Virus record (IMG/VR): IMGVR_UViG_3300010389_000087
Span: 1 to 29,760 of that record
Source: a virus
DNA length: 29,760 bases
Direction: 5' to 3' (one strand)
The notes beneath the pieces were generated by a model. It ran no database searches, was not told the DNA's origin, and saw only the letters and a program-made list of their open reading frames with translations. Shown piece by piece: positions 235 to 14,995 of the stretch. A program made the translations under genes and the position numbers. Positions within the stretch are counted from its first letter, which is position 1. Every line of letters begins with the position of its first letter.

Positions 235-720
235 TTAAAAGAAATTAAAGTTCACATTGACTCTACACTTATCATTAGTGCAAGTAGTACTATGATGAGG
301 AACTGTTGGATCAAAAAGTAATAGGCGATTTTCTACAGATTTTACTTCTTCATTACCAATTACTGTAAGACCATCATTAGTATTCAGATAAAAAATAGCA
401 CCTTTATGCGGAAACTCATAATCCACATGGTCCATATGATGCACAATGGTTTCAGTAGAAGGATATAAGTTTCCTTTAATTCTCATCACTGCACGACATT
501 CAATTTGATTTAGAATTGGTGCAAATACTTGTGCTTCTGGTTCCGTATGAAAACCACTCCAAAATTCATGAGTAAAATAATAAGATGCTGATATTGGCAA
601 ATCTTCTTTTTCGTTTGATACAACAGGTGTTAAGTTCCAAGGAAAGTTTGGATTTAACATAAAGTTTTTGATTTTTTGAAACTCTTCCTCTGGAAGAACA
701 TTATCTATAATTTTAAACAT
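235..720 (-). CDS. Small 2OG-Fe(II) oxygenase-like protein
   Basis: This 161-residue protein is probably a 2-oxoglutarate/Fe(II)-dependent oxygenase reduced to the catalytic core. Visible landmarks are an iron-binding HxD motif (H95-M-D97, with H98-V-D100 as an alternative), a strand GAIFYLNTNDG, a distal histidine in PHHS (H142 or H143), and a 2OG-binding arginine candidate R153 in KCRVNVNFNFF. I chose ATG 720 because it gives MFKIIDNVLP, which aligns with the start MYEIVDNFLS of the upstream paralogue. A longer reading from 789 would add a hydrophobic leader that overlaps the neighbour's coding sequence and is unlikely. It overlaps the upstream paralogue by 8 bases, so the two are translationally coupled. 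Its substrate is unknown. Confidence 0.75.
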   Translation of the reverse strand: MFKIIDNVLPEEEFQKIKNFMLNPNFPWNLTPVVSNEKEDLPISASYYFTHEFWSGFHTEPEAQVFAPILNQIECRAVMRIKGNLYPSTETIVHHMDHVDYEFPHKGAIFYLNTNDGLTVIGNEEVKSVENRLLLFDPTVPHHSTTCTNDKCRVNVNFNFF

Positions 721-1234
721 AATTGATATTAATAACACAACGAGGATGATCAGTTGAAGTAACAGAATGATGTTCAATTGATCCATCAAAAATTAACATT
801 CGATTTTGCGAGCAATCTACTTTAGCAGTATTTTTTAGAATTGTAAATCCATTACAATCCGTTACATAAAATAAAGCCACTTTGTGAGAAACATTTCTAT
901 CAGTATGAAATTCATGATAAATGTGTTCTTTCGTTGGTACTAAAAGATTAGCACGAACATCAAAAAGTTTTTTGACTTTCAACTTATCAATAATTGGTTT
1001 GACGATTGAATAATGCTTATCAAATTTCAATCCATTATCCGAAGAATATAAAGAACGATTATACATCCAATCATGATCTTCATATCCTGTTGGGCCCAAA
1101 TCAGGATCACGAACAATACCTTTATGATAATTCCACGAAAAGTTATTTGGATCTTTTAAATCTTTTGGAAAGAATGTATTTATTATGTTCAAAAAATTTT
1201 CTTGTGAAAGAAAATTATCTACGATTTCATACAT
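713..1234 (-). CDS. Small 2OG-Fe(II) oxygenase-like protein (paralogue of the next gene)
   Basis: This 173-residue protein is a divergent tandem paralogue of the product of 235-720. It has HxD at H110-T-D112 (in HEFHTDRN), the strand KVALFYVTDCNGFTIL, a distal histidine in EHHS (H155 or H156) and an arginine candidate R165 in PRCVININYV. These are the metal and 2-oxoglutarate ligands expected for the double-stranded beta-helix oxygenase fold. It overlaps the DUF6165-like gene upstream by 8 bases and the next oxygenase by 8 bases, so it belongs to one operon with the glycosyltransferases. Substrate unknown; a protein or glycan hydroxylation role fits the neighbourhood (inference). Confidence 0.75.
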   Translation of the reverse strand: MYEIVDNFLSQENFLNIINTFFPKDLKDPNNFSWNYHKGIVRDPDLGPTGYEDHDWMYNRSLYSSDNGLKFDKHYSIVKPIIDKLKVKKLFDVRANLLVPTKEHIYHEFHTDRNVSHKVALFYVTDCNGFTILKNTAKVDCSQNRMLIFDGSIEHHSVTSTDHPRCVININYV

Positions 1235-1586
1235 AGCATTTTATCTCTTGATAGGATGATTTATATTTTTCGTTGATTTCTTTTTTAATTGATGCCCTTT
1301 TATCGTTTGTAGCATATACCAATCTTGCATTTGTTATAAATTCATCATCGAATAAATGATCTTTTTCAGATTGTCTCAATTCATCTTCGATTTTCCAAAG
1401 TTTAGAGTTAACTTCCAAAAGTTGTTCTAAGTAATTTTCATCATAAACATTGTTTTCTTTCGCAATAAAAATTAAATCTTTAATTTCCTGAATTACATAA
1501 GAACTATTTGTATGTTTAGATTTTATTTCAAGAATAGAAATCTTGTCTAAAAGTTCTCCTATGGAAATTGGTATTGTGATTTTCAA
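1227..1586 (-). CDS. DUF6165-like protein
   Basis: The 119-residue product starts MKITIPISIGELLDKISILE and is largely helical and charged, with a repeated pattern of I/L and K/E suggesting a coiled-coil or helical hairpin. The opening PISIGELLDKISILEIKS resembles the DUF6165 family, small proteins of unknown function that in bacteria are often found with glycosyltransferase or surface-polysaccharide genes. It overlaps the GT9-like gene upstream by 4 bases (ATGA type) and the oxygenase downstream by 8 bases. A partner or accessory role for the glycosyltransferases is plausible but not shown. The family match is from recognition of the N-terminal motif only. Confidence 0.55.
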   Translation of the reverse strand: MKITIPISIGELLDKISILEIKSKHTNSSYVIQEIKDLIFIAKENNVYDENYLEQLLEVNSKLWKIEDELRQSEKDHLFDDEFITNARLVYATNDKRASIKKEINEKYKSSYQEIKCYV

Positions 1587-2563
1587 TTGTATGACACTCC
1601 CCTAATTTCTTTAGGTTCTTTATGTTGATGTATCATAGGATCTTTCTGCATTTTACCTTCTATTTTTTCAATAATTTCAATATATGCACTTTCAATCTCT
1701 TCTTGAGTGAAATCAATTCGAGGTTCATTTAATCTAGAGGACATATGTGCTTGAAAACCTGATATTCTCATTGAATCTGGATAAAACTCAACATCTCTTT
1801 CAATAATGTGAAAACCATCATAGGTGACATTGACACGATGAGTTCCTGCAATGACTACGGATGCTCTCTTATTCAATGCTTTACACATATGCTGACCACA
1901 ACTATCACATCCAATAAAATAATCAGCAGAACCAATAATTGCAGCCCATTCTCTTAGATTTGGATCCGGATCTGGTTTATAAGTTTTGATATTGTGAAAT
2001 TCCTTTGCTCCCATAAAAATTAAATTATAATTTTTTGAAAGATTAGTAATAAAGTAATCTAACATTGGTTTTGGAATTGATCTCAAACTATCATCAAATA
2101 TTCCAGAAGAATGAGGAGTTGCGGTAGAACCATATGGTTGCAATACAATGGTCTTTGATTTTTTATGTATTGACTTTACCTGCTCTATAATTTCAAATGC
2201 TTTTCTTTTTTCTGGAGAGGAAATGTTCAACTGCATTGGAGGCAGGTCGCTGTGGTCTGTTGAGTTATTGATACAGACATCAAATGACTCTCTTAAAGAA
2301 ATCTCATTACGATAATATGCAGGAAGACGATAAGGTTCTGGCGTAATTACTTGATCTGCTTTCCAATACAAGTCAAAAGAACCTCTTGCATCAGGATTAA
2401 ATGTTCTTTCTTGTAATTCTGGAAATCCCCAAGTCATAAAGTCCCATCCAGGAATCATAATATACCACTCTTCATCTGGATGGTTCTTATGATATTTGAG
2501 AAGTGCTGGAATTGCTGTAATAATTCTTCCAAGGCCACCATCTAATGAGATTATTGTAGTCAT
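1583..2563 (-). CDS. GT9-like (heptosyltransferase-type) glycosyltransferase
   Basis: The 326-residue protein resembles GT-B fold glycosyltransferases of family 9 (ADP-heptose:LPS heptosyltransferase type). The N-terminal Rossmann half begins with the glycine loop DGGLGRIITAIPAL (residues 8-21). The nucleotide-sugar half contains IVLQPYGS (about 139-146), a LIFMGAKE strand (about 181-188) and the signature-like segment AAIIGSADYFIGCDSCGQHM (about 207-226), which corresponds to the donor-binding region in GT9 proteins. Length fits the family. The start overlaps the stop of the upstream glycosyltransferase as TAATG, indicating coupled translation. Donor and acceptor are unknown; proteins of this type can add heptose or other sugars to lipid or protein acceptors. 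Confidence 0.7.
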   Translation of the reverse strand: MTTIISLDGGLGRIITAIPALLKYHKNHPDEEWYIMIPGWDFMTWGFPELQERTFNPDARGSFDLYWKADQVITPEPYRLPAYYRNEISLRESFDVCINNSTDHSDLPPMQLNISSPEKRKAFEIIEQVKSIHKKSKTIVLQPYGSTATPHSSGIFDDSLRSIPKPMLDYFITNLSKNYNLIFMGAKEFHNIKTYKPDPDPNLREWAAIIGSADYFIGCDSCGQHMCKALNKRASVVIAGTHRVNVTYDGFHIIERDVEFYPDSMRISGFQAHMSSRLNEPRIDFTQEEIESAYIEIIEKIEGKMQKDPMIHQHKEPKEIRGVSYN

Positions 2564-3267
2564 TATGAGTAAGAAATACTATGAATGGTTTTCAATTTTT
2601 TAATTGAATTTTTTAAATATTGAATTTTAATATCTCTTGCATCACTTGTATGTGCAATGATATTTAATTCTGGAAAATCTTCTTGTAAGGAAGCAGTTTT
2701 GATATTATATCTATGAAGGTTTAAAGTAAGTAAAAATTCATCAATTAGAGTATCTTTAATTTCCTTTTCTGTAAGATGAGTCCTTATCTTCATGTAATTT
2801 TCCATTTCTGGATGTGTAGAACTTAAATCTATGTGTTTATAGTAATCAAAAGGATTTTCATAAGGTTTCACACAATCTCTTGAGTTCTGATGAAATACTA
2901 AAAAGAAAAATGGTGCATAATACTTTAGATTATATTGTCCCTCAATGTTTTCTGGATGAAAGTGATGAGTTGGTGAATTATATTTTGCAATTAATACTCT
3001 GTCTTCTTCCACTAAAGTTGTTAAATCTACTCCTTTTGTATTAATTAAACAGTCAGCATCTAAAAAAATAATCCAATCATAAGTTTGTGAAAACTCATAT
3101 AATTGAAAAAATTCCAATCTTAAAGGAATGTTTGAAAATTTTCGTTCAGTAATAATATGAAAATCTGCATCAATATTTTTTGCATACTCTCTCATATAAG
3201 GAAATGTAAGTTCTGTAATTTCCTTATCATAATCGTCAATATTAAGAGTAACTAATAGTTTTTTCAT
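2563..3267 (-). CDS. GT-A type glycosyltransferase with DxD motif
   Basis: The 234-residue protein starts MKKLLVTLNIDDYDKEI and carries the sequence YDWIIFLDADCLINTKG (about 63-79). D70-A-D72 is the DxD metal/nucleotide-sugar motif of GT-A fold enzymes, preceded by the usual R-x-E/K-x-F pattern at about 50-54. This arrangement is typical of phage and bacterial glycosyltransferases related to the GT8 or nucleotide-diphospho-sugar transferase group. The gene overlaps the upstream glycosyltransferase by 26 bases and the GT9-like gene by one base, so it is inside the same operon. The sugar and acceptor cannot be read from sequence. The protein is shorter than many GT8 enzymes but contains the core domain. 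Confidence 0.7.
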   Translation of the reverse strand: MKKLLVTLNIDDYDKEITELTFPYMREYAKNIDADFHIITERKFSNIPLRLEFFQLYEFSQTYDWIIFLDADCLINTKGVDLTTLVEEDRVLIAKYNSPTHHFHPENIEGQYNLKYYAPFFFLVFHQNSRDCVKPYENPFDYYKHIDLSSTHPEMENYMKIRTHLTEKEIKDTLIDEFLLTLNLHRYNIKTASLQEDFPELNIIAHTSDARDIKIQYLKNSIKKLKTIHSISYS

Positions 3268-4012
3268 TTTTATTAGATTTGATTAAATAAGTATCATTTA
3301 TAATTTTTCCCCAGTCAATTATTGGACTTAAGTGATTAGCATCACAATGAGTGCTCCAACCTGGCATTGGGGAAATTACATATTTTTGATTTTGATTGAG
3401 TTCCCAGAATTTATCATAATCTTTAGAAAAATAAAATCCCTTTTCCTCTTTTATGGCGTGAGTTGATGAATATTTTTTATGCACATCCAAATCTTCTAAG
3501 AGTGTCTTGTATTTACATGCAAATGTATTTGTAGTTCCAGGAACTGCTCTCCAGTGAGAACTTTTTGTTTTAAAAATCTCACAAAGATATCCACTTTCTA
3601 TGAAGAAATCAAAGTCATATAAAGTTAAATATGATGGATTTATTTCAAATCCTTCTAACATTACATTGCACCATCCAAAACGATGCAAATAATCATCTTC
3701 TAAAAGATATACAATTTGATTATCTTCAAAGTTTCGTGATTGAATAATATCAAGAGTTTTTAAGAAACTATCACATTCACTTCCACAATTAATAATCTCT
3801 ACGTTTTTCTCTTTTGCAAGAAAAGTTTTATCAATACTTCCATAGAATTCATCATAAACAATAGTATAATTTACAAGATTTGGATCTAAAGTATTTTTAA
3901 AGTTTTCAAATACTTTAATCTTATTGAACCATTCTGGTCTAGTTCGGTCTGGAAGTTCTTGTAGTTTGGAGTAATAGCAATGTCTTAAAAATACTTCAAT
4001 TGGTTTATTCAT
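3242..4012 (-). CDS. Putative GT-A glycosyltransferase with EDDYLH motif
   Basis: The 256-residue protein has the acidic motif VYLLEDDYLHRFGW (EDDYLH at 105-110), which takes the place of DxD after a hydrophobic strand, and a downstream segment SSHWRAVPGTTNTFACKYKT. The same two landmarks in the same order occur in the product of 4744-5571 (VYSVEDDYLHYP, then RHWKSSTWTTQTFMTS), so the two are distant paralogues of one glycosyltransferase-like family. An N-terminal stretch with conserved R and a strand of type YTIVYDEF fits a nucleotide-sugar binding half. It precedes the DxD glycosyltransferase with a 26-base overlap. The 72 bases upstream of its ATG (4013-4084) hold no gene and no clear promoter. 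Function is inferred from motif and context. Confidence 0.6.
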   Translation of the reverse strand: MNKPIEVFLRHCYYSKLQELPDRTRPEWFNKIKVFENFKNTLDPNLVNYTIVYDEFYGSIDKTFLAKEKNVEIINCGSECDSFLKTLDIIQSRNFEDNQIVYLLEDDYLHRFGWCNVMLEGFEINPSYLTLYDFDFFIESGYLCEIFKTKSSHWRAVPGTTNTFACKYKTLLEDLDVHKKYSSTHAIKEEKGFYFSKDYDKFWELNQNQKYVISPMPGWSTHCDANHLSPIIDWGKIINDTYLIKSNKNEKTISYS

Positions 4013-4084
4013 TTGTATGTAAAATTAATTTTAATATCATTCATACCAATAATCTTAAATATATTCTCTCTAAAAGTCATTTTA

Positions 4085-4732
4085 TTATCTTAAATTTGGA
4101 CCATTGACCCAACTTACAAGAGCATGTCGAGTTCCCTTCTTTACTGGTTTTACTTCGTGCAAAATAGATGAATCAAAAAATATAATTGTACCTTTTGTTT
4201 TTGGGGCATTAAATTCTTGCCCATCTTTATAAAAAACTAATTCACCACCTTCATAATCTTCCGAACTACTCAATTGTATTGAAAAAGATAATTTTCTAAT
4301 GTCTACAAAGTTTTCTAATTTTGAACTATCTCCACAATCAATATGCCTCGAATAGAATCCTTGTTGATCTTGATTGTACTCTGTAAACTGCAAATTTTCA
4401 ACAAATTTTAAAATATAATCAAAATTTTCTTGATTTACTTTATGTATTTGCGAAATAAGTTTTTTATACAACCAATTTGTATCTGGATTTAAGTCAATCC
4501 ATTTTATAATTGATTGTCTTACTCTTGGAACATTACCTATATTTGGATTTTTAATGTGATAATCCGGAGTAAAAGGTTTTTTAATTTCTTCGTCAATGTT
4601 TCCACCAATTTTCGCACTTTCTATTGGTAAATTTTCTGCATATTTTATTATTTCACAAATATCTTTACCCGAAAGAAAATTATCTACCCAATAAATTGGT
4701 CTTATTTCTTTGTTTGTTCGAAGTAAATTCAT
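4085..4732 (-). CDS. 2OG-Fe(II) oxygenase, prolyl 4-hydroxylase-like
   Basis: The 215-residue protein is a clear member of the P4H-type 2OG-Fe(II) oxygenases. It has H130-I-D132 (in YSRHIDCGD), the central strands RKLSFSIQLSSSEDYEGGEL, the distal H192 (SSILHEVKPV) and R202 in GTRHALVSWVNGP, which would bind the 2-oxoglutarate carboxylate. Members of this fold hydroxylate proline, lysine or other side chains and also small molecules. It lies between two putative glycosyltransferases (3242-4012 and 4744-5571), which suggests hydroxylation followed by glycosylation of a shared target (inference). Only 11 bases separate it from the upstream gene. Start ATG 4732 gives a full-length domain. Confidence 0.85.
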   Translation of the reverse strand: MNLLRTNKEIRPIYWVDNFLSGKDICEIIKYAENLPIESAKIGGNIDEEIKKPFTPDYHIKNPNIGNVPRVRQSIIKWIDLNPDTNWLYKKLISQIHKVNQENFDYILKFVENLQFTEYNQDQQGFYSRHIDCGDSSKLENFVDIRKLSFSIQLSSSEDYEGGELVFYKDGQEFNAPKTKGTIIFFDSSILHEVKPVKKGTRHALVSWVNGPNLR

Positions 4733-4743
4733 AATATTTCAAT

Positions 4744-5571
4744 TTATTGATAAATTATTTTAGTTTTCTTTTTTACTCTAGTGTATTTATCCCACCATTC
4801 AAAATGATTGATATATGGATCTCTTTCTTTTTCAAACTGAACATGAAGAGCTAAAGATGGAATGGGGTGAAAAACTGTAACATAATCTCTCCAAACATTT
4901 CCTATTGTGGTTTCCTCCCAAACAATATCGTCCCAATTCAATGTATGTTTTAAATGTTTAGGAACAACCTTAAATTCTTTTGCAAGTCGTTCAAAATGCC
5001 TCCAGTGCTCATTAAAAACATTTGGTGAGGTCATAAAAGTTTGAGTTGTCCATGTAGATGATTTCCAATGTCTACACCTACCACGAGTGATTAAGAACTT
5101 CTCATTTATATTAAAATCATATTCTTGAGGAGTGTCATATGGAAATATACAGACATCATCTAATTGGTATTTCCTTTTTAAATCCACATACGCATTAAGC
5201 ATTTCACCAATTGCTGTAGGATAATGTAGATAGTCATCTTCTACGGAATAAACTACATCGGATGTTGAATTCTTACAATATTCAAATTGATTTAATGCAC
5301 TATAATTATATCCACATTCCTCTAAATGAATAAGTTCCCAGGAATGAATTGATTGGGAGAAAATATTCTTTAAAGAATTTATAAGTTCTTCTGTGCTATG
5401 GTCATCAAGAATTGTAAAATGTATTTTGTGGTTTGAAACATTATTTGCAGAATTTACGAGGGAAGAGACACATCCAATTACCAACTCTGTTTTAGAAACT
5501 GGGATATATCTTTGCTTTTTTCCATGAATATTTTTGCCATCATGAGTTCTTAAAACGATGTGTAAGTTCAT
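4744..5571 (-). CDS. Putative GT-A glycosyltransferase with EDDYLH motif
   Basis: The 275-residue protein starts MNLHIVLRTHDGKN and shows a GT2/GT-A like layout: an early strand with R-T-H, HFTILDDHSTEEL (DDHS at 56-59, like the donor-binding DDxS of GT2 enzymes), YNYSALNQFEYC, and the acidic motif VVYSVEDDYLHYP (EDDYLH at 111-116). Its second landmark RHWKSSTWTTQTFM matches SHWRAVPGTTNTFA in the product of 3242-4012. It overlaps the GT4-like gene upstream by 4 bases (ATGA), which implies translational coupling. Donor and acceptor unknown. Confidence in a glycosyltransferase role is moderate to good because of DDHS plus EDD. Confidence 0.65.
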   Translation of the reverse strand: MNLHIVLRTHDGKNIHGKKQRYIPVSKTELVIGCVSSLVNSANNVSNHKIHFTILDDHSTEELINSLKNIFSQSIHSWELIHLEECGYNYSALNQFEYCKNSTSDVVYSVEDDYLHYPTAIGEMLNAYVDLKRKYQLDDVCIFPYDTPQEYDFNINEKFLITRGRCRHWKSSTWTTQTFMTSPNVFNEHWRHFERLAKEFKVVPKHLKHTLNWDDIVWEETTIGNVWRDYVTVFHPIPSLALHVQFEKERDPYINHFEWWDKYTRVKKKTKIIYQ

Positions 5572-6548
5572 TGATAATTCAAAGTATCATTTGACATTTG
5601 TTTTAAAAAACTAATCCAATCTTGGGTTCTCTTTTCCCAACTGAAATGATAATCGACATACTCTTTTTGTTTCTTTAGGTGTTCACATGTCTCCTTCGTC
5701 TTAACCAATTCAATTGCGGACTTAAGATTTTGATAAAAAATCTTTTCATGTCTTTTAAAATCTTCATCAAATTGATACATCATAGTCCAGTTTGATGCAG
5801 TTTCTGAAAGAGAACCTAAAGATGAATGAACGCATAAACATCCAGCACTCATTGCCTCTAAAAGAGATAAACAAAAAGTTTCTTTCCAAATAGAAGGATA
5901 TGCAAAAATATGAGATGAAGCTAATGATTTTTTTAATTCATCGTTAGGAAGATAACCAACGTTATTAATTTTTGGATGGTTTTCTAATCTTTTATATAAG
6001 TCACTTTGTTTGTAATCTTCATGCCAATCAGATAAACCGTAAATTTTCCATGAAGAGTGGACTTTGAGTTCTATATTATTATACTCTCTTGCAAGTTTTT
6101 CAAAAACATTTATAAGAACTGGTAGTCCTCTTTGTGGATTGCAATGATGAACTATAACAATTTTATCTTCTGGTTTTTGCTGAGTTTCAATAGGGTCCAA
6201 GGCATATTTTATCACAATACAATGAGAGTATGGAATATCATAATATCTAACCCACTCTTCCATTTGAGAATATGAGATGAAAACAATCTTATGAAATTTT
6301 TTCCATCCACAATTTGCTAATGGATTATACTCCTCAACTCCCATCCATTTCAACATTTCTTCAGTTTGAACAGGAGATAGATGAACCCAGAAAAGACGAA
6401 TCTTATTTGGGTCAAGGTACTGAATTCTATCGCAAACAATCTGAAACTTATCTAAAAGATTTTTTGGCAATCTTTCTTGGAGTTTGTACTTGATAATTTC
6501 AGTTCCACCTAAAGATTTTTTGCTAAATTCATCAAATTCTATAGTCAT
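5568..6548 (-). CDS. GT4-family glycosyltransferase
   Basis: The 326-residue protein has the two landmarks of GT4 (glycosyl transferases group 1) GT-B enzymes: an N-terminal SLGGTEII segment (GGTE at 14-17) that contacts donor or acceptor, and a C-terminal E-x7-E motif, E223-TFCLSLLEAMSAG with E231, followed by a glycine-rich turn and CVHSSLGSLSE. A strand KIVFISYSQMEEW marks the linker region and IVIVHHCNPQRGLPVLI the nucleotide-binding start of the second domain. At 326 residues it is somewhat short for the family, mainly in the N-terminal half. It is the first gene of the glycosyltransferase run and is followed by a 4-base overlap. Product unknown. Confidence 0.85.
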   Translation of the reverse strand: MTIEFDEFSKKSLGGTEIIKYKLQERLPKNLLDKFQIVCDRIQYLDPNKIRLFWVHLSPVQTEEMLKWMGVEEYNPLANCGWKKFHKIVFISYSQMEEWVRYYDIPYSHCIVIKYALDPIETQQKPEDKIVIVHHCNPQRGLPVLINVFEKLAREYNNIELKVHSSWKIYGLSDWHEDYKQSDLYKRLENHPKINNVGYLPNDELKKSLASSHIFAYPSIWKETFCLSLLEAMSAGCLCVHSSLGSLSETASNWTMMYQFDEDFKRHEKIFYQNLKSAIELVKTKETCEHLKKQKEYVDYHFSWEKRTQDWISFLKQMSNDTLNYQ

Positions 6549-6566
6549 AATTATTAAAATAAATTC

Positions 6567-6836
6567 TCAATCAGATTCTTCTTGTAGTAATTTTGCTCCC
6601 ATTTCTTCTATTTCTTCCAGTGTCATTGTTCCAATTTTCTCATATCCCACAGCATCCAATACCTTTAGATAACCTTTAGGAACGACCTCTGTAGAAAAAT
6701 AATGTTCCAACTCTTCATAATATGGATTATCCGTATCAATTCTTATCTGCATTGCGTTAAGAACTTTTTTAACATCTTCAAGAGTTTCAATTCTTTCTAC
6801 ACACAATTGGAATCTTCTTAATGGTTTCTTAGTCAT
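6567..6836 (-). CDS. Hypothetical small protein
   Basis: The 89-residue product begins MTKKPLRRFQLCVERIETLE and is rich in E, K and L with alternating hydrophobic residues, so it is probably mostly helical. I do not recognise the family. It stands between a sulfotransferase (6862-7695) and a GT4 glycosyltransferase, with 18 bases before the latter, and has its own candidate late promoter at 6859-6865. The start ATG at 6836 is the only in-frame start that gives a compact gene. A structural or partner role for the modification enzymes is possible, but nothing in the sequence proves it. Confidence 0.6.
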   Translation of the reverse strand: MTKKPLRRFQLCVERIETLEDVKKVLNAMQIRIDTDNPYYEELEHYFSTEVVPKGYLKVLDAVGYEKIGTMTLEEIEEMGAKLLQEESD

Positions 6837-6858
6837 AATTCATTTCAATTATTTTTAA

Positions 6859-6865
6859 TATTTAT
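6859..6865 (-). promoter_or_regulatory. Late promoter box (ATAAATA) overlapping a stop codon
   Basis: Minus-strand ATAAATA lies 23 bases upstream of the ATG at 6836. It overlaps the TAA stop of the sulfotransferase gene (stop at 6862-6864), so one short sequence may serve as both terminal codon and promoter. Confidence 0.55.
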
Positions 6866-7695
6866 TGATACTGAATAAACTTTTTGTCCAATTTTTCAAT
6901 AATATCAGCATCTGGTTTATATTCTTTTCTCCAGAACTCCATATTCATCTCTTTATATTTCTGAACGATTTCTAGTGGAAGAACATTTCTTGGTGGATTA
7001 TATTCCACTTTTCTTTTCACTGTATGCAAATCCTTAAGATTGCAAGCCTTATCAAAGTTCTCATTAGAATACTCAAGGTTTTCATAGTCGTGAGAATAAT
7101 AAGGTTTTTCTAGAAATTCATAGACACCTCTCATTGTTTTTTCTGGATCTTTACACAGGTTCTCATACTCAATAAAGTAAATCATTTCTGGATTGAGTGC
7201 ATAACCTTCTTGAAGTAGGATCCAAGGACCAGCAACAATTCCACCATTCTTGTCCATCAGATCACCACATCGTGAGAACACATTGTCCTTATATTCTGTA
7301 AGTGTATTGGTATGAAATGGATTTTTGGATGAAATAACTTCAAAAGAATTCAAAATCGAAACAATATCTCTTACTGGACACAGAATTTTAGTGTAAGGGA
7401 AGAGTGCCTTAAGAAAATTTGTTTTCTTTGTCCAATCTCTTGAACTATCAAAGATCACTGGTTTTTCAATATGTTTATAGTAACCTTCAAAAATTCCATA
7501 CATTAAATTTTTTCTTTGATCTTCCGTGATTGTAAGATTACTTTCTGCTCCAGTCACAATATCAATTGCAGTTCCAGTGAGTGCTTCTACTGGTGATGCA
7601 ATATCAGCATAAAACTCTGGATTCTGTCGAAGAATAGAAGAAAGTAATGTAGAACCTGACCTTGGAAGTCCTGAGATAAAATAATATGATTTCAT
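6862..7695 (-). CDS. Sulfotransferase (PAPS-dependent type)
   Basis: The 277-residue protein begins MKSYYFISGLPRSGSTLLSS. S8-GLPRSGST16 is the 5'-phosphosulfate-binding loop of PAPS-dependent sulfotransferases. R109 in CPVRDIVSILNSFE, with S113, matches the 3'-phosphate-binding motif. IYFIEYENLCKDPEKTMRGVYEFL (about 172-195) is the usual region after the core fold. These enzymes move a sulfuryl group from PAPS to hydroxyl or amino groups of glycans, proteins or small molecules. It ends 3 bases before the next oxygenase gene's stop (7699 side) in the same transcript. The host would have to provide PAPS. Function assignment is strong; the acceptor is unknown. Confidence 0.88.
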   Translation of the reverse strand: MKSYYFISGLPRSGSTLLSSILRQNPEFYADIASPVEALTGTAIDIVTGAESNLTITEDQRKNLMYGIFEGYYKHIEKPVIFDSSRDWTKKTNFLKALFPYTKILCPVRDIVSILNSFEVISSKNPFHTNTLTEYKDNVFSRCGDLMDKNGGIVAGPWILLQEGYALNPEMIYFIEYENLCKDPEKTMRGVYEFLEKPYYSHDYENLEYSNENFDKACNLKDLHTVKRKVEYNPPRNVLPLEIVQKYKEMNMEFWRKEYKPDADIIEKLDKKFIQYQ

Positions 7696-7698
7696 AAA

Positions 7699-8316
7699 TC
7701 AGGATTGGGGATATTCAATACTACCTTTTGGAAGTGCAATCAAATTAAAAGAAATGGAAATTCTTTCTTCGTCGTGATTATTTGTTTGTACTGAATGTGG
7801 AAGATACGAAGGAAAGAGAATAATATTACCTTCTACTGGTTCAATTTGTATACTTTCTCCAGTAAATTGATTTTTTTGTGATGTAAGTTCACAACCTTTC
7901 CACATTTTATTAATTGCTGGATTAACAATAGAAAGTTTTCCACTTCCATCTGGAGTATGAAGATAAAAAACACCAGAGAACACCTCACCATGAATATGTT
8001 CAGAATTCATACATTGACGACTATCATTGACATTTAACCATGCCTCAGTGAGAGCAATGTCACAATCAATAAAATCTAGGTCTGCTGATGCTTTAAATCC
8101 CATTTGGCAGATATATTCAAAAATAGGTGCCAATTCTGGAACATGATGTAAAGTGCTTGGTGATTGATATCCAGCAATATTAGACCTTGGAGTTTCTTTT
8201 GTTGGATTTTGTTCTTTATATTCTCTTACTACATTTAGAAAGGTTTCTTTATGTTCTTCAAACTCTGGATATTCTGATTGCCAGAGAGGAACAGAGTAAA
8301 TGGGCATCAAGTTCAT
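7699..8316 (-). CDS. 2OG-Fe(II) oxygenase of the TIGR02466 / 2OG-FeII_Oxy_5 type
   Basis: The 205-residue protein resembles the small oxygenase family common in marine phages and bacteria (TIGR02466-like). Landmarks are the opening PIYSVPLWQSEYP, a Trp-rich strand TEAWLNVN, the metal motif H107-I-H109-G-E, the strand SGVFYLHTPDGSGKL, the distal H174 in FPSYLPHSVQTN, and R185 in ERISISFNL. The first metal motif is HxH rather than canonical HxD; which residue is the second ligand is uncertain. It is the first gene of a transcript that continues with a sulfotransferase, and a TATTTAG-type promoter box lies upstream at 8351-8357. Substrate unknown. Confidence 0.8.
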   Translation of the reverse strand: MNLMPIYSVPLWQSEYPEFEEHKETFLNVVREYKEQNPTKETPRSNIAGYQSPSTLHHVPELAPIFEYICQMGFKASADLDFIDCDIALTEAWLNVNDSRQCMNSEHIHGEVFSGVFYLHTPDGSGKLSIVNPAINKMWKGCELTSQKNQFTGESIQIEPVEGNIILFPSYLPHSVQTNNHDEERISISFNLIALPKGSIEYPQS

Positions 8317-8350
8317 AGTGTTTAAAGACGAATTAATTCATATTATACCA

Positions 8351-8357
8351 TATTTAG
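8351..8357 (-). promoter_or_regulatory. Candidate late promoter box (CTAAATA)
   Basis: Minus-strand CTAAATA differs from ATAAATA by one base and lies 35 bases upstream of the ATG at 8316. The same variant occurs before the adhesin at 12808-12814 with the same spacing as a perfect box at 10573, which supports it as functional. Confidence 0.4.
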
Positions 8358-8364
8358 ATAAATT

Positions 8365-10554
8365 TTAATAAGTCACACACCTGAAGGAACGAATGGGCAG
8401 TCCAATACCTTTAGTAATAGGAGAATAGGTTGCGCCCCCTGTAGTCAAACAAACTCTCCATGCAGTAAACTGAAAACCTTCAGTACTGGACCAATATAAA
8501 GAATTAAGATAAGAATCCCAATAAATTCTACAACTAGATCCTGGATTCTTTAGTTGTCCGCAAGTTGGCACAAACCATCCAGAACATCCTGATATACTTT
8601 GAGCGGTTGTGTTTGCATCATTTCTAGAATACCAATCCCTGTTTACTTCAGAACTTGAAGGTGCCACAACCCATCTAACTCCTCCGGCCGCACAAATTAA
8701 GTACCCACCACCATATGGGTCGCCTAAATTTAATACTGTAGTAAAACTATAAGAAGCAGTACCACCACCTATATTAAGACCCTCATAATTTGGAGTAATA
8801 GCTGTATTGGGTATTACAAGGTAAATTGCAGTTCCTGCTGGTAAATTTGATGTTGGATCTAAAGTCCATACGTTCCCAGCAATGCTAATTCTTGGACTCG
8901 TTGCAGCATCATAAGATTCTATAATGCTTCCACCAGCACTTCCAGATCTTAATGTAATAGTTCCAGTGCCCCTAGATGGTGGCCCATCAAATGTTAATGC
9001 TATATTAGTACTTACTGATTGATTAGTAGCACCATTAGTTGGACTATAGGATGATACATTAACTTGCGCTTCAGTAGTAAAGTTATAAGTATCTGTTCCT
9101 GCATATCCTGCAACTGCCTCATCGGGCACTACAACATAATAATTTGTAGTAACTGATAAATTTGATGTTGGATCTATGGTTAAAGTGTTTGTGCTAAAGG
9201 TCAATCTAGCAGAACTTGTTACATCATAAGATTCTATAATTGTACCACTAGCACTTCCAGTTCTTAATGTAATTGTACCTACACCAGATCTAATGTTTTT
9301 ATCAAAAGTAAAGACAATATTTGTAGATACACCAACATCAGTGCTTCCAGTTGGAGGTGCAAGTGATGTTACTACAGGACCTGTTTCTGTAGTGAAATTA
9401 TAAGTTGTTAACTCATAGTTATTACCAAGAACATAATTTTTAACCATTCCTTGATCTAAAGTTAGATAATATCCTTGATCATAATCAAAGTTATCTGTTG
9501 GATCTATTGTTAAGGTTTGGTTGACAAGAGTAATTCCAGAACCAACTTGAATATCAAAACTTTCGACTATTGTTCCAGATGCACTATCCTTTCTTAATCT
9601 TGCAGTTCCAGTACCAACATTAACTAACTGATCGAATGTAAAAGAAATATTTGGACTACTTAGAGCACTTACTCCAGTTGCTCCGTCACTTGGACTAAAT
9701 GAAGTAATTGTTGGACTAAAGATTAACTTGTCTCCAGTTCCTACAAACTCATTAGCAATGAATGTTGTTGCTGTAATAACACCAGTGGTGTTTATAGATC
9801 CATCAGTTCCAATTCCAATTCCAGTTAAGTTAGTTCCATCGCCATAAAATGCAGTAGCAGTTATAATACCAGAACCTATAGTTACACCAGTTCCAATATT
9901 AATAGAATTATTATCACCATCAAGAGTAATACTTGAGGTTCCTATGGTAAGAATACCAGTTACTCTTGCATCACCATCTACAATAAGTGCTGTAGTGGCA
10001 GTACCAGTATTGACAATTAATCCACTTCTTGCTGTGGCAAGACCAATGGAATCAACATTCGTAACATCTTCATATGTTAATGTTCCACCAATACTTACAT
10101 TGCCAGTGACAGTAAGATCACCACTGGTGTTCCATGAAGGTCCTCCAGTAGAAAGTTTTGCTGGCGTTACTGATCCATCATCAATTACATTAACTGGAAC
10201 TGCAGGTCCTAAGGATACAATCGAACAATCTAATGCCCCTGCAGGTGCTGTTGTGAAGGTGATATTACTTCCAGATAATGTATAATCAGTTGATGGTTCT
10301 TGAACAATACCACCTAAAGTTACTCTCAGTTGTTGAGTATTGGTTGGTATGAAAGCAACTGATGCTAAAGTTAGTGCAAATGTTTGCGTAGATCCATTAA
10401 AAGAACCTGAAATATCATCAAGAACTTTAATTTGACTTGATGTGGTTGGAGTATAACTTTGCCAAACAAATCCATCCCACTCATATGAAAATCCAGATGT
10501 TATGTCAGTATATACTTGACCTAATGATGGGGAATCTGGAAAATTTAAAGCCAT
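8365..10554 (-). CDS. Large modular adhesin/tail-fibre protein with Ig-like repeats and lectin-like tip (copy A)
   Basis: The 729-residue protein reads as ordered modules. Residues 1-35 (MALNFPDSPSLGQVYTD, then WDGFVWQSY) are a virion-anchor module. A phage tail-fibre type beta domain follows (FNGSTQTFAL to FTTAPAG, about 50-120), then a shaft of repeats (GILTIGTSSITLDG and FYGDGTNLTG types, about 130-265). Three bacterial Ig-like domains follow, each closing with LTIDPT or WTLDPT plus YNFTT or YSFTT (about 275-605). The last 120 or so residues form a Cys- and Trp-rich DUF1566/Lcl-like, C-type-lectin-like domain ending SFRCVTY. It is a tandem duplicate of the gene at 10597-12789, including promoter and leader. 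It probably binds the host surface. It has its own late promoter at 10573. Confidence 0.85.
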   Translation of the reverse strand: MALNFPDSPSLGQVYTDITSGFSYEWDGFVWQSYTPTTSSQIKVLDDISGSFNGSTQTFALTLASVAFIPTNTQQLRVTLGGIVQEPSTDYTLSGSNITFTTAPAGALDCSIVSLGPAVPVNVIDDGSVTPAKLSTGGPSWNTSGDLTVTGNVSIGGTLTYEDVTNVDSIGLATARSGLIVNTGTATTALIVDGDARVTGILTIGTSSITLDGDNNSINIGTGVTIGSGIITATAFYGDGTNLTGIGIGTDGSINTTGVITATTFIANEFVGTGDKLIFSPTITSFSPSDGATGVSALSSPNISFTFDQLVNVGTGTARLRKDSASGTIVESFDIQVGSGITLVNQTLTIDPTDNFDYDQGYYLTLDQGMVKNYVLGNNYELTTYNFTTETGPVVTSLAPPTGSTDVGVSTNIVFTFDKNIRSGVGTITLRTGSASGTIIESYDVTSSARLTFSTNTLTIDPTSNLSVTTNYYVVVPDEAVAGYAGTDTYNFTTEAQVNVSSYSPTNGATNQSVSTNIALTFDGPPSRGTGTITLRSGSAGGSIIESYDAATSPRISIAGNVWTLDPTSNLPAGTAIYLVIPNTAITPNYEGLNIGGGTASYSFTTVLNLGDPYGGGYLICAAGGVRWVVAPSSSEVNRDWYSRNDANTTAQSISGCSGWFVPTCGQLKNPGSSCRIYWDSYLNSLYWSSTEGFQFTAWRVCLTTGGATYSPITKGIGLPIRSFRCVTY

Positions 10555-10572
10555 CTTATTACACTTTTTAGG

Positions 10573-10580
10573 TATTTATA
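10573..10580 (-). promoter_or_regulatory. Late promoter (TATAAATA, perfect)
   Basis: Minus-strand TATAAATA, the complete T4 late-promoter consensus, 19 bases upstream of the ATG at 10554. It is followed by CCTAAAAAG, an extension shared with the boxes at 12808, 26977 and 27705. Confidence 0.75.
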
Positions 10581-10596
10581 TATTTCGATGTGGGTA

Positions 10597-12789
10597 TTAA
10601 TAAGTCACACACCTGAAGGCACGGATACAGAGAGGCTGTGTCTTAAAGAGGTCGCTGCGAGCAGCACCATTATTGGGGTACACACTCCAAGCGGCGCCGG
10701 CATTGAACTCTGTATCACTCCAGTAGTAAATATTGGAGTAAGCATCCCAATAAGTTATACAAGTATGTCCTGGGTTCTGTAGTTGTCCACAAGTTGGTAC
10801 AAACCATCCAGAACATCCTGATATACTTTGAGCGGTTGTGTTCGCATCATTTCTAGAATGCCAGCTTCTACATACTTGAGCACTAATTGGTGCTACAACC
10901 CATCTAACTCCTCCAGAAGCACAAATAAAATATCCACCTTCATAAGCACTTCCTAAAGAAGGTGCTACTGTAGTAAAACTATAAGAAGCAGTTCCGCCAC
11001 CAATATTGAGTCCCTCATAGTTTGGAGTAATAGCAGTATTTGGAATTACAAGGTATATGCTTTGACCTAAAGGTAAATCTGATGTTGGATCAAGAGTCCA
11101 TACGTTTCCTGCAATACTAATTCTTGGACTTGTAGCAGCATCATAAGATTCTATAATTGTACCACCAGCACTACCACTCCGAAGGGTAATAGTTCCAGTA
11201 CCTCTTGTCGGAGTATTATCAAAAGTTAACGATATATTAGTATTTGCAGCAACACTTGTGGCTCCATTTGTTGGACTATAGGATGATACATTAACGACAT
11301 TAATTGTTGTGAAGTTATATGTATCTGTTCCTGCATATCCTGCAACTGCACCATCAGGAATTACGACATAATAATTGGTTCCAATACTTAAATCTGATGT
11401 TGGATCTATGGTTAATGTATTTGTACTAAAGGTTAATCTAGCAGAACTGGTTACATCATAGGATTCAATAATCGTACCAGTTGAACTATCACTTCTTAAT
11501 GTAATTGTTCCACTACCTGCTCTTATATTTTTATCAAAGGTAACAACAATGTTTGAATTTACCGCAATATCTGTAGACCCACTCGTTGGGGAGAAAGAAC
11601 TTACTGTAGGACCAACTTCGGTAGTAAAGTTATAAGTATTCAATGCAGCACTATTACCAAGATAGTTTGTTACAACTCCAACTGGAAGAGTGACATAATA
11701 TTCGGTGTTGTAATTAAAATTGTCTGTTGGATCTATTGTTAAAGTTTGGTTATTTAAGGTAACTCTAGTACTAACACCAACACTAAAACTTTCTACGATA
11801 GATCCACTTGCACTTCCAGTTCTTAGTGCAATTATTCCTGTGGTTCCCAATCCAATTGTTGGATCGTAACTATAAGTCAAAACGATATTAGGACTACTTA
11901 AGGCACTTACGCCAGTTGCACCATCTACAGGACTAAAAGTAGTAATTGTTGGACTAAAGATTATCTTATCTCCAATTCCAATAAATTCACTTCCAACTAA
12001 CTTTGATGCTGTAATAATTCCAGTGGTATTTACAGACCCAGCAGTTCCAACACCAGCATTTCTAATGTTACTACCATCACCATAGAATGTAATAGCAGAG
12101 ACAATACCAGCACTTATTGTTACTGCAGATCCTACTTTTATTGTATTAGTTGTTCCATCAAGAGTGATTGAACTTGTACCAATTGTTAAAATTCCAGTGA
12201 TTCTTGCATCACCATTAACAATAAGTGCTGTTGTAGCAGTGCCAGTATTTACTACTAATCCACTTCTTGCCGTGATTAATCCTATTGAATCTACATTCGT
12301 AACATCTTCATAAGTTAGTGTTCCAGCAATAGAAACATTTCCAGAAATACTAAGATCACCACTGGTGTTCCATGAAGGTCCGCCAGTAGAAAGTTTTACT
12401 GGCGTTACGGAACCATCAGCAATTTCTACAGAAAGTTTAGGACCCAAGGATACAATCGAACAATCTAAAAGTGCTGATGGTGGAGTTGTAAAAGTAATAT
12501 TAGAACCTGATACTGTATAATCAACTCCAGGTTCTTGAACAATGCCACCTAAAGTTACTCTGAGTTGCTGTGCATTTCCAGGAGTAATTGTGGTTGATGA
12601 TGAGGCTAGTGCAAATGTTTGCGTAGATCCATTAAAAGAACCTGAAATATCATCAAGAACTTTAATTTCACTTGGGGATGATGGAGAATAACTTTTCCAG
12701 ACATAACCATCCCACTGATAGGAAACTCCTGCAGTAGTATCAGTATAAACCTGATTCAGTGATGGTGAATCTGGAAAGTTTAATGCCAT
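10597..12789 (-). CDS. Large modular adhesin/tail-fibre protein with Ig-like repeats and lectin-like tip (copy B)
   Basis: The 730-residue protein has the same order as the product of 8365-10554: anchor module MALNFPDSPSLNQVYTD, FNGSTQTFAL beta domain, shaft repeats, three Ig-like domains, and a C-terminal lectin-like domain ending AFRCVTY. The third Ig-like domain and the GCSGWFVPTCGQL segment are almost identical between copies. The tip after NPG differs at most positions; copy B has SNIYYWSDTEFNAGAAW where copy A has LNSLYWSSTEGFQFTAW. The first Ig-like domain also differs. Codons in the variable tip (GCC, GGC, CGC, GAC, CTC) are more GC-rich than the AT-rich surroundings. It is probably an alternative host-binding protein. 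A late-promoter variant lies at 12808-12814. Confidence 0.85.
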   Translation of the reverse strand: MALNFPDSPSLNQVYTDTTAGVSYQWDGYVWKSYSPSSPSEIKVLDDISGSFNGSTQTFALASSSTTITPGNAQQLRVTLGGIVQEPGVDYTVSGSNITFTTPPSALLDCSIVSLGPKLSVEIADGSVTPVKLSTGGPSWNTSGDLSISGNVSIAGTLTYEDVTNVDSIGLITARSGLVVNTGTATTALIVNGDARITGILTIGTSSITLDGTTNTIKVGSAVTISAGIVSAITFYGDGSNIRNAGVGTAGSVNTTGIITASKLVGSEFIGIGDKIIFSPTITTFSPVDGATGVSALSSPNIVLTYSYDPTIGLGTTGIIALRTGSASGSIVESFSVGVSTRVTLNNQTLTIDPTDNFNYNTEYYVTLPVGVVTNYLGNSAALNTYNFTTEVGPTVSSFSPTSGSTDIAVNSNIVVTFDKNIRAGSGTITLRSDSSTGTIIESYDVTSSARLTFSTNTLTIDPTSDLSIGTNYYVVIPDGAVAGYAGTDTYNFTTINVVNVSSYSPTNGATSVAANTNISLTFDNTPTRGTGTITLRSGSAGGTIIESYDAATSPRISIAGNVWTLDPTSDLPLGQSIYLVIPNTAITPNYEGLNIGGGTASYSFTTVAPSLGSAYEGGYFICASGGVRWVVAPISAQVCRSWHSRNDANTTAQSISGCSGWFVPTCGQLQNPGHTCITYWDAYSNIYYWSDTEFNAGAAWSVYPNNGAARSDLFKTQPLCIRAFRCVTY

Positions 12790-12807
12790 CTTATTGTGCT
12801 TTTTAGG

Positions 12808-12814
12808 TATTTAG
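12808..12814 (-). promoter_or_regulatory. Candidate late promoter box (CTAAATA)
   Basis: Minus-strand CTAAATACCTAAAAAG, 19 bases before the ATG at 12789. The paralogous adhesin has TATAAATACCTAAAAAG at the same distance, so the box was duplicated with the gene and lost one consensus base. Confidence 0.5.
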
Positions 12815-12828
12815 TAGAAATGAAAGTA

Positions 12829-12892
12829 TTAATTACGCCGATCAAAGGCAAATTCTGCTCTTAAACCATCAGCAAGAACATAGTGGAAAAAG
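12829..12892. repeat. 64-bp direct repeat, copy 1 (3' end of sulfotransferase gene)
   Basis: This segment matches 13512-13575 over 64 positions with 4 differences. It encodes the last 20 or so codons, including the stop, of the sulfotransferase gene, whereas copy 2 encodes the same part of the oxygenase. Identity stops sharply upstream of the repeat in both genes, which marks a recombination junction. Confidence 0.9.
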
Positions 12893-13512
12893 TTTTTTCT
12901 AAAAAAATTATTATATTTAAACATTTTATAATCTTCCTTATAAAACTTTTTCACATATTTTTTGATATTTGAATTTAGTTTATATTTCTCATCAGTTTCA
13001 CCTTTAAATTTTTTATAATTTACATCGTTCAAATTAATCTCTATATTCGTTTTATTATAGACCCATTTTTTAAAATTTTTCCCAAATCCCCATTCATATT
13101 TCCAAACATGAGTTTTTGAAGAAATGAATTTATGTTGTGGGAGAAACCAATTATTATGGTAACTTTGGGCATTTATTTCCAAATTAATAAATTCTAAAAA
13201 AGAGTCATATGTTATTATATTATTATAATCAATTCCATGTAATTTGCACATGTTGTTTATACATGAATTTAATTTATCAAAAGGATTTCTTACAACTGTT
13301 ATATGTGGAATATCCCCCACATTCAGATAAAGATCATAAAGTGGATAATGTAAATGAGTTACATCAATTCCTTTAATTCTATATTCATGTATCCTATGAT
13401 ATTTGCATTCTATATTCATAGAGTTTTCAAAAAGGGAAGATACATATCTTCCTCCTGTTCTTGGTATATGAATAAAGTAGCAAACATTATCATTTTGCTT
13501 AAAGATTGCCAT
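12829..13512 (-). CDS. Small sulfotransferase-like protein with borrowed oxygenase C terminus
   Basis: The 227-residue protein has a sulfotransferase fold signature: YFIHIPRTGGRYVSSLF (about 12-28) as the 5'-phosphosulfate loop and ITVVRNPFDKLNSC with R75 and S83 as the 3'-phosphate motif, the layout of Sulfotransfer_2-like enzymes. The gene is visibly AT-rich and its product is rich in Lys and Asn. Its last residues FHYVLADGLRAEFAFDR are the same as the C terminus of the oxygenase just upstream (13512-14360), so the end of the gene is a duplicated piece of its neighbour (see repeat at 12829-12892). The start codon overlaps the oxygenase stop as TAATG. It was probably inserted as a cassette (inference). 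Substrate unknown. Confidence 0.75.
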   Translation of the reverse strand: MAIFKQNDNVCYFIHIPRTGGRYVSSLFENSMNIECKYHRIHEYRIKGIDVTHLHYPLYDLYLNVGDIPHITVVRNPFDKLNSCINNMCKLHGIDYNNIITYDSFLEFINLEINAQSYHNNWFLPQHKFISSKTHVWKYEWGFGKNFKKWVYNKTNIEINLNDVNYKKFKGETDEKYKLNSNIKKYVKKFYKEDYKMFKYNNFFRKNFFHYVLADGLRAEFAFDRRN

Positions 13513-13575
13513 TAATTGAACCGATCAAAGGCAAATTCTGCTCTCAAACCATCAGCAAGAACATAGTGGAAAAAG
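13512..13575. repeat. 64-bp direct repeat, copy 2 (3' end of oxygenase gene)
   Basis: This is the partner of 12829-12892 and likely the parental copy, because the encoded C-terminal sequence fits continuously with the oxygenase domain (YYHQIFFHYVLADG). Confidence 0.9.
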
Positions 13576-14360
13576 ATTTGATGATAATATAAACCTTCTT
13601 TTTCTACTTTCTCATTGAAGAATAACCATTTCTTTTTATTTTCATATTCTCTTGGAAGTGGTTCACGCCAATGAGGTCTTTCACATCCTTTGTAAATCAT
13701 TCCATCACCGGGATTTAAAATTACTGAACGATTCTCACCCTTTTTGATAATATTTTCTTTCTTTTTAGGATCATCATAAGTATCTGGAGTTTTAATCCAT
13801 ATGGGCCATGGATTACTTACATTACTACTGACGTGTACAGTAACTGAAATCTCACATGCAGGTCTATCAGTATGTAAAGTCAACTCCTGACCTGGATTAT
13901 AAAACCTATCAAAGTAATAGGTGTTATAAAGTTTTTTACCAATTGCCTTTTCAATCTTTAATCTAATTTGAGAATGATAATACTTATAAGCAGGCCAATC
14001 ATATCTTGATGTAGAACCAACAACTTGATTTTCTACTGGAACATGTGAAAACTTATCAACTTTTCCATAATAACTATATTGCCCCTTTAATTCTGGTGGG
14101 GGACAATAAAGATCTTTTGGATCCCATAGATTTTTGATAAGAAGATATCCGTTCTTATCAAACTCTTCATTATTTGTTGGTGATGTATGAGAATTTTCTC
14201 TTTCGGAATCACAACAATGTTGATCTGGCAATAATGAATCTTGATTGACTTGTGTAATTTGTGTAACCTGTTCAGATTTTTGTTGCTCCATTGCAACAAA
14301 TACTTTTTCAAGAAAATCAATTTCTTTTTCGGTTACTTCCAATTGTTTATTATTTTTCAT
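13512..14360 (-). CDS. 2OG-Fe(II) oxygenase with low-complexity N-terminal extension
   Basis: From ATG 14360 the protein has 282 residues. Residues 1-65 are a Gln/Glu/Ser-rich, probably flexible or coiled extension. The catalytic part follows, with EFDKNGYLLIKNL typical of phytanoyl-CoA-type or related oxygenase starts, NPGQELTLHTDRPACEISVTV giving H163-T-D165, and NPGDGMIYKGCERPHWREPL with H230 as the likely distal ligand, then YYHQIFFHYVLADG. I prefer ATG 14360 to an upstream start at 14393 because it sits 5 bases after the stop of the preceding gene and has GGAAG upstream; the longer start overlaps that gene. The substrate is unknown. Its 3' end was duplicated into the following gene. Confidence 0.8.
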   Translation of the reverse strand: MKNNKQLEVTEKEIDFLEKVFVAMEQQKSEQVTQITQVNQDSLLPDQHCCDSERENSHTSPTNNEEFDKNGYLLIKNLWDPKDLYCPPPELKGQYSYYGKVDKFSHVPVENQVVGSTSRYDWPAYKYYHSQIRLKIEKAIGKKLYNTYYFDRFYNPGQELTLHTDRPACEISVTVHVSSNVSNPWPIWIKTPDTYDDPKKKENIIKKGENRSVILNPGDGMIYKGCERPHWREPLPREYENKKKWLFFNEKVEKEGLYYHQIFFHYVLADGLRAEFAFDRFN

Positions 14361-14365
14361 AGCAA

Positions 14366-14995
14366 TCACTTCCAACGAGGTCCAACAGTCCAACCAACGA
14401 TACTCTTACGAACTCCTTTTGTTACCTTTTGAACTCTATGTTGAGCTCTTGAATCAAATAAAATAATAACACCTCTTTTTCTTGGTGCAATGTAAGATCT
14501 TCCAGTAGAATCTAGTAGTTGCAAATTACCACCTTCATATTCATCTGGATCGGATAAAAGTAAACTAAATGAAAGTTTTCGCACTGTTTCAGTATTTTTA
14601 ATTAAAAAATCTTGATTTAGAGAATTTTGACATTCTCTATTGTTTGTATTTGGTTTATAAAATGTTTCAATTCCAGCATCATTATGCCATCCATAATATT
14701 CTCCTTCACCATATACAGTGTATTGAAGAGATTCTCCATCAATATTAGTTAAATCATATAAAAAGTTTTCACGATTTGCTCTTTGAACGTAATGCCACAC
14801 AAATCCACCAACCCAATGGTCTGTGGGAATCCATGTGTTTCTTGCATTTCTCTTATCTTTATCTACTGTTCCATATATGCCGCCACCAACACGAGAATCC
14901 TGAAGGCTATTTTCTGCTTTTAAAAGATCTTCTTCTATATTATCAACTATAGAGGAAGGAATATCAGTATAATACCAAATTGATTGTTGTGCCAT
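14366..14995 (-). CDS. 2OG-Fe(II) oxygenase, P4H-like
   Basis: The 209-residue protein begins MAQQSIWYYTDIPSSIVDNI and carries the full ligand set: H104-N-D106 in YYGWHNDAG, strands VRKLSFSLLLSDPDEYEGGNL, distal H186 in SRAQHRVQKV, and R196 in GVRKSIVGWTVGPRW. The GGNL plus HRVxxVxxGxRxSIVGW pattern is typical of PKHD/P4H-type hydroxylases and is shared with the product of 4085-4732 (GGEL, LHEVKPVKKGTRHALVSW). It sits between fibre genes and the next oxygenase, with 5 bases separating them. The 54 bases upstream hold no obvious promoter. Hydroxylation of a virion or host protein is possible but unproven. Confidence 0.87.
   Translation of the reverse strand: MAQQSIWYYTDIPSSIVDNIEEDLLKAENSLQDSRVGGGIYGTVDKDKRNARNTWIPTDHWVGGFVWHYVQRANRENFLYDLTNIDGESLQYTVYGEGEYYGWHNDAGIETFYKPNTNNRECQNSLNQDFLIKNTETVRKLSFSLLLSDPDEYEGGNLQLLDSTGRSYIAPRKRGVIILFDSRAQHRVQKVTKGVRKSIVGWTVGPRWK

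Follow-up and report, generated by a model that had tools for sequence, protein, structure and literature searches.

Linkage of a sulfotransferase-bearing enzyme cassette to predicted lectin-like adhesin tips in a T4-like cyanophage fragment and its relatives

The DNA considered here is the IMG/VR fragment IMGVR_UViG_3300010389_000087 (29,760 nt, in what follows the window), which belongs to a T4-like cyanophage, a marine phage infecting cyanobacteria. At positions 235-14995 it carries an island of genes for putative 2-oxoglutarate- and Fe(II)-dependent (2OG) oxygenases, glycosyltransferases (GTs) and sulfotransferases (STs), in which two adhesin genes are embedded. The main finding is that an ST of the type encoded by gene g11 is accompanied, in nearly all loci compared, by an upstream gene for a lectin-like adhesin tip, either within a larger enzyme cassette or in a much smaller operon. 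The enzyme families are already known, and it is their linkage to the tip that is new relative to the literature searched, which covers few subscription journals; nothing was found there that joins phage, sulfotransferase, 2OG oxygenase, glycosyltransferase and tail fiber, or phage, sulfotransferase and diversity-generating retroelement (DGR). The conserved linkage suggests that viruses chemically decorate their host-recognising part, or the surface recognised by it.

Tip and enzyme genes were called with hidden Markov models (HMMs) iterated on sequences gathered in this analysis. A scan seeded with g11 only was followed for the best 80 of 156 loci, which fall into 25 clusters at 90% identity (one of them comprises 46 of the 80). 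A same-strand tip gene lies upstream of the ST in 24 of the 25 clusters, the sole exception being a contig end with 203 bp of upstream DNA. A tip-seeded scan, with a seven-sequence alignment as query, returned the order tip, 2OG, ST, GTs, DUF6165, 2OG, and the cassette was found in most of the loci L177-L207; with one tip sequence as query there were no hits, the search patterns having landed in variable parts. With both scans pooled and the ST clusters taken at 95%, an upstream tip is present in 52 of 54 clusters, and the two exceptions (L119, L203) are contigs that end close upstream. These 54 clusters consist of 24 cassettes and 30 loci with tip and ST only. The gene following the tip block, when Avd and reverse transcriptase (RT) genes are skipped, is a g12-type 2OG in 22 cases, DUF6165 in five (after second tips) and another gene in two. 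The window shows the same backbone as the cassettes of its relatives, tip-tip-g12-g11-g10-g9-g8-g7-g6-g5-g4-g3-g2-g1. Small stand-alone tip genes were also seen within the cassette, directly before DUF6165, in L187, L192, L193, L195 and L203.

Neighbourhoods of the portal gene served as control (80 loci, 740 kb). They contained no ST, GT, DUF6165, NodU or tip hit and only three g12-like 2OGs; since many control contigs are short, cassette and control were compared per kb. The near-absence of the cassette families from the control indicates that their clustering is not due to chance. An earlier note, made from the letters of the window, had proposed that the enzymes are dedicated to the fibre and adhesin genes, and this part is borne out: the ST-, tip- and g16-seeded scans are all fibre-linked and the portal control is not, and a check across the relatives did not find the enzymes inherited independently of fibre or adhesin genes. 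The single full pathway of hydroxylation, glycosylation and sulfation that it had envisaged is not supported: the genes fall into two or more modules that can occur separately (g17-g16; tip-g12-g11-...-g3-g1), and the g11-type ST is found with no cassette GT or 2OG in 29 of the 30 tip-ST-only clusters.

The tip-ST-only loci belong to unrelated phages (examples are L131, L142, L147 and L170), in which one to three tips are followed by a small gene of ~142 aa, the ST and then a gene resembling adenosine 5′-phosphosulfate (APS) kinase, with neighbouring gene ends that overlap or abut. The APS-kinase domain is encoded in 28 of these 30 clusters. APS kinase makes 3′-phosphoadenosine 5′-phosphosulfate (PAPS), the sulfate donor; a longer version of the gene has an additional nucleotidyltransferase-like part, so that PAPS is its presumed product. 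In L131 this small gene is a relative of window g18 (phrog_7759). Neither a cassette GT nor a cassette 2OG occurs in 29 of the 30 clusters, and in the remaining one, L108, the GT and the 2OGs present are not of the cassette types. A search of bacterial genomes with the ST of the tip-ST pair found no relative. Further on in two tip-ST loci there is a GT2-TPR gene with a weak structure match to GmaR (L131 11637-12692, L162 4517-5572).

The tip is a domain of ~114 residues at the ends of the twin adhesins g13 and g14, and it is predicted to have the fold of the C-terminal domain (CTD) of Legionella Lcl. The AlphaFold2 model of the g14 tip, built with 24 relatives, reaches a pLDDT of 92.7, and its best PDB fold is Lcl-CTD (8q4e, TMq 0.81, E 7e-7). 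The profile search also matches Lcl-CTD (4e-10); in Pfam, several sister tips score above the cut-off for Lcl_C (PF07603), and the window tip itself is below it. Lcl-CTD forms a C-type-lectin-like trimer, and its ligands are sulphated glycosaminoglycans (PMC11162425). The earlier note had likened the island to collagen hydroxylation followed by glycosylation, a comparison that finds no support here: Gly-X-Y runs are found in no window protein and in no more than 5 of 25 cassette loci, and there are STs with no accompanying 2OG. In some sisters a collagen-like Gly-X-Y fibre protein is encoded upstream of the tips (L109 4300-7008, L102 4105-6711, L131 5350-6819), and fibre and tip together make up an Lcl-like arrangement divided between two genes.

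The product of g11 is assigned to the PAPS sulfotransferases of the TPST-like fold family. It keeps a conserved P-loop-like PAPS site (GLPRSGST), and its nearest solved structures, by profile comparison with the PDB, are TPST1 (1e-13) and TPST2 (1e-9). Between phage groups, its identity is 51-53%; an acceptor encoded by the phage would explain this better than host glycans, which vary.

In six non-identical sister loci, bAvd, RT and template repeat (TR) genes or elements of a DGR lie directly downstream of the tip. The mismatches between variable repeat (VR) and TR fall at TR adenines in 22/24 positions in L097, 27/27 in L109, 29/29 in L110, 18/19 in L177, 17/17 in L195 and 20/20 in L126. A DGR in the window itself was considered and rejected: no RT was found within the 29.8-kb fragment, third codon positions vary freely, and DGR-mutable codons show no excess of the differences between the g13 and g14 tips (17/30 vs 7/17, P 0.37). 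The gap between g13 and g12 is 48 nt.

The reading that we put forward, and to which an even chance is given, is that the cassette consists of soluble, late, virion-directed enzymes that modify the tip or fibre proteins. The twin adhesins would bind the receptor through their tips, which have the C-type-lectin-like Lcl_C domain, and the downstream genes on the same strand would supply soluble cytoplasmic enzymes, probably made late together with the virion proteins, by which newly made tip or fibre proteins would be modified before assembly. The 2OG oxygenases would put hydroxyls on these proteins, the GTs would attach a sugar or a short glycan, and the PAPS-dependent ST would attach sulfate; such a decoration would adjust or mask the surface that binds the receptor. 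The late timing, the substrate, the order of the reactions and the effect on binding are what we infer. In favour of this reading we count the near-constant upstream tip and the portal control, the strand and gene junctions that the enzyme genes have in common with structural genes, the conservation of g11 and its nearness to TPST among solved structures. The solubility of the enzymes is judged by hydrophobicity: the window enzymes have no membrane-type hydrophobic stretch (highest Kyte-Doolittle mean 1.53), and in the cassettes 6 of 294 open reading frames (ORFs) exceed 1.9, none of them of a flippase-like family. A Gtr-type cassette for host serotype conversion was also considered and set aside, as the same measure revealed neither a membrane flippase nor a membrane-anchored transferase. 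Because the DGR mutates the same tip in sister phages, one surface would be varied both in sequence and in chemistry. That the two form a joint system, in which a lectin-like tip, DGR-mutated in some lineages, is sulfated and otherwise decorated by co-inherited enzymes and the tip-ST-APS-kinase-like operon is a minimal viral protein-sulfation system, is a tentative and rather doubtful extension.

Several observations weigh against decoration of the virion. The Glu-Glu of TPST, in which Glu is the catalytic residue, is aligned with Ile-Ala of g11 in a weak pairwise alignment, so that protein-tyrosine activity is not established. The Lcl fold suggests that the tip binds sulphated glycans, and the ST could equally act on the glycan ligand; heptose and carbamoyl genes in relatives recall the synthesis of surface polysaccharides. 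Tips without a nearby cassette occur in L208-L217 (three of them on one contig), several of these contigs being longer than 130 kb. Distant ST and 2OG relatives are also found away from fibres: in S-SCSM1, the ST relative lies in a replication region, beside recombination genes. In S-SKS1, which has another distant ST relative, no tip was found by the HMM used. The main rival explanation, less probable but to be taken seriously, is that the enzymes remodel the host receptor, changing the surface glycan recognised by the tip with sulfate, hydroxyl or extra sugar, so that progeny escape trapping on debris or competing phages are kept from adsorbing. A shared glycan, bound by the tip and altered by the ST, would then be the reason why the two travel together. 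In favour of this rival, the tip matches a domain that binds sulphated glycosaminoglycans. The GT9/heptosyltransferase-like g4 and the NodU-type carbamoyltransferases and heptose genes of relatives are typical of surface polysaccharides, and the DGR-driven variation of the tip in sisters implies a changing receptor. Against this stand the conservation of g11 across unrelated phages and the result that, as judged by hydrophobicity, no flippase, polymerase or membrane-anchored GT is present among the 294 cassette ORFs, an argument that soluble enzymes of the lipopolysaccharide core escape; late remodelling would, moreover, presumably bring little gain in a lytic infection.

Published proposals for cyanophage 2OGs are DNA repair or 2-oxoglutarate signalling (PMC3037559; PMC9146016). 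P4H-type 2OGs are scattered in cyanophages, with 2-7 per genome, and for this reason 2OG abundance alone is too weak as evidence of a link to fibres. It is improbable, and strongly disfavoured as a whole, that the 2OGs have such generic roles while GTs and STs are unrelated cargo of a hypervariable island: the order is fixed, the cassette is found again from independent seeds and is absent from the portal control, and the g17-g16 pair adjoins fibres in five cultured genera (S-SM2, Bellamy, S-MbCM6, P-RSM4, ACG-2014g), mostly without sugar genes. A very improbable alternative is a removable cap: a small molecule or glycan, sulfated by the ST, would fill the tip's own binding site until adsorption. 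Such a cap would fit the fold of a sulphated-glycan binder and the presence of ST and APS-kinase-like gene beside the tip in loci that mostly have no cassette GT, but we know of no precedent for it.

Table 1. Predicted genes of the island and the adjoining g18, with their assignments (positions in the window).
Gene	Position	Strand	Assignment
g1	235-720	-	2OG, paralogue of g2; phrog_274, E 9e-44; ATG start
g2	713-1234	-	2OG; phrog_274, E 1e-38; HTD...H read from translation
g3	1227-1586	-	DUF6165; PF19662 1.1e-8
g4	1583-2563	-	GT9/heptosyltransferase-like, cassette core; phrog_8954 4e-60; weak heptosyltransferase III motif 0.0015
g5	2563-3267	-	Putative GT, unconfirmed; DxD motif; no family or PDB match
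g6	3242-4012	-	GT-A-fold transferase; EDD motif; model pLDDT 84
g7	4085-4732	-	P4H-type 2OG; PF13640 1.3e-14
g8	4744-5571	-	GT2-like; EDDYLH motif; weak PF00535 5e-4; aligned with g6
g9	5568-6548	-	GT4-type; PF00534 2.8e-17, firm
g10	6567-6836	-	Small conserved cassette protein, phrog_9119; also in sister phages
g11	6862-7695	-	PAPS sulfotransferase, TPST-like fold family; PF13469 (Sulfotransfer_3) 1.8e-18
g12	7699-8316	-	2OG; PF13759 1e-22; usual first gene after tip
g13	8365-10554	-	Adhesin; Big_5 Ig-like domains 3.5e-30; C-terminal Lcl_C-like tip, DNA ~8368-8709
g14	10597-12789	-	Twin adhesin; Big_5 2.7e-33; tip at 10600-10941
g15	12829-13512	-	Second ST, Sulfotransfer_2-like; phrog_3347 5e-20; Pfam weak 0.012
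g16	13512-14360	-	2OG; phrog_2954 2e-57, labelled 'ferrochelatase'
g17	14366-14995	-	P4H-type 2OG; PF13640 1.9e-13; fixed partner of g16
g18	15050-15481	-	Small fibre-associated protein, phrog_7759; in other phages a related gene separates tip from ST

Every gene across 235-29760 is on the minus strand, and the neighbours from g1 to g17 have overlapping ends or gaps of <=72 nt. The inventory of the earlier note (six 2OGs, two STs and a DUF6165 protein on one strand, with many overlaps) is upheld by family and profile matches. Its five GTs fared unevenly: g9 is firm, g8, g6 and g4 have moderate to weak matches, and g5 could not be confirmed. The TTG start at 789 that it gave to g1 makes the gene too long. 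Among the best folds for the g6 model is POMGnT1 (E 7e-7), with a TM score of only ~0.53; PDB searches with g16, g4, g5 and g15 gave nothing useful. The island is preceded by genes for a short tail fibre (phrog_529), glycine-rich fibre proteins (PF21722) and a baseplate-wedge/fibre protein carrying an endosialidase chaperone domain. Megablast against cultured phages returned short fibre matches only, to Synechococcus and Prochlorococcus phages. At the fragment edge (29185-29760) a truncated Mom-like DNA modification protein is encoded (phrog_1384).

By family or profile match and an HxD/E...H iron site, g1, g2, g7, g12, g16 and g17 are 2OG-Fe(II) oxygenases. The motifs of g1 and g2 read HMD/HTD...H...R, and the label 'DNA endonuclease V' of phrog_274 was rejected for them on motif and profile grounds. 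The iron site of g12, as translated, reads HxH instead of HxD. In g16, H111-x-D113...H178 is invariant across 14 sequences, and the 'ferrochelatase' label that phrog_2954 bears in many cyanophages was likewise rejected in favour of a 2OG oxygenase. The g17-g16 pair occurs together in 12 of 12 loci of the g16-seeded scan. Through a 69-nt direct repeat (12828-12896 and 13511-13579, 93%), g15 ends in a copy of the 3′ end of g16, and two different enzymes have a common C-terminus; the repeat may mark the insertion of g15. Genes labelled 'tryptophan halogenase' were observed near tail-fibre or fibre-assembly genes and 2OG genes in L223 (7449-9035, S-SZBM1) and L220 (12511-13998, S-SSM7).

For part of the abundant cyanophage 2OGs, their place in a fixed cassette beside lectin tips points to a testable role different from DNA repair or nitrogen sensing. 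The tip-ST pair, in turn, offers a system of two to four genes for studying the chemical modification of receptor-binding proteins and its relation to DGR variation.

Among known systems, the islands of P-SSM2, S-SSM7, S-CAM1 and S-SRM01 resemble the window in having a g4-like gene, a carbamoyltransferase, a 2OG, heptose genes or an ST beside tail fibres; they differ from it in lacking the g12-g11 order and, as judged with the HMM used here, the Lcl_C tip. To our knowledge, virion sulfation has no known case in any phage, and the glycosylation systems of mycobacteriophages include no sulfotransferase, oxygenase or lectin tip. Virion glycosylation in mycobacteriophages is a related case: phage GTs are proposed to glycosylate the capsid protein (PMC11256854). 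DGR systems with Avd, RT and TR/VR are represented in sister phages, with adenine-directed changes, and the window is without the RT. TPST comprises the closest solved relatives of g11, in which, by the weak pairwise alignment, its Glu-Glu appears not to be kept. Legionella Lcl (PF07603, DUF1566) has the tip fold and the profile match in common with the phage adhesin, which differs in its Ig-like stalk and in having no collagen repeats in the window, glycan binding being known for Lcl only.

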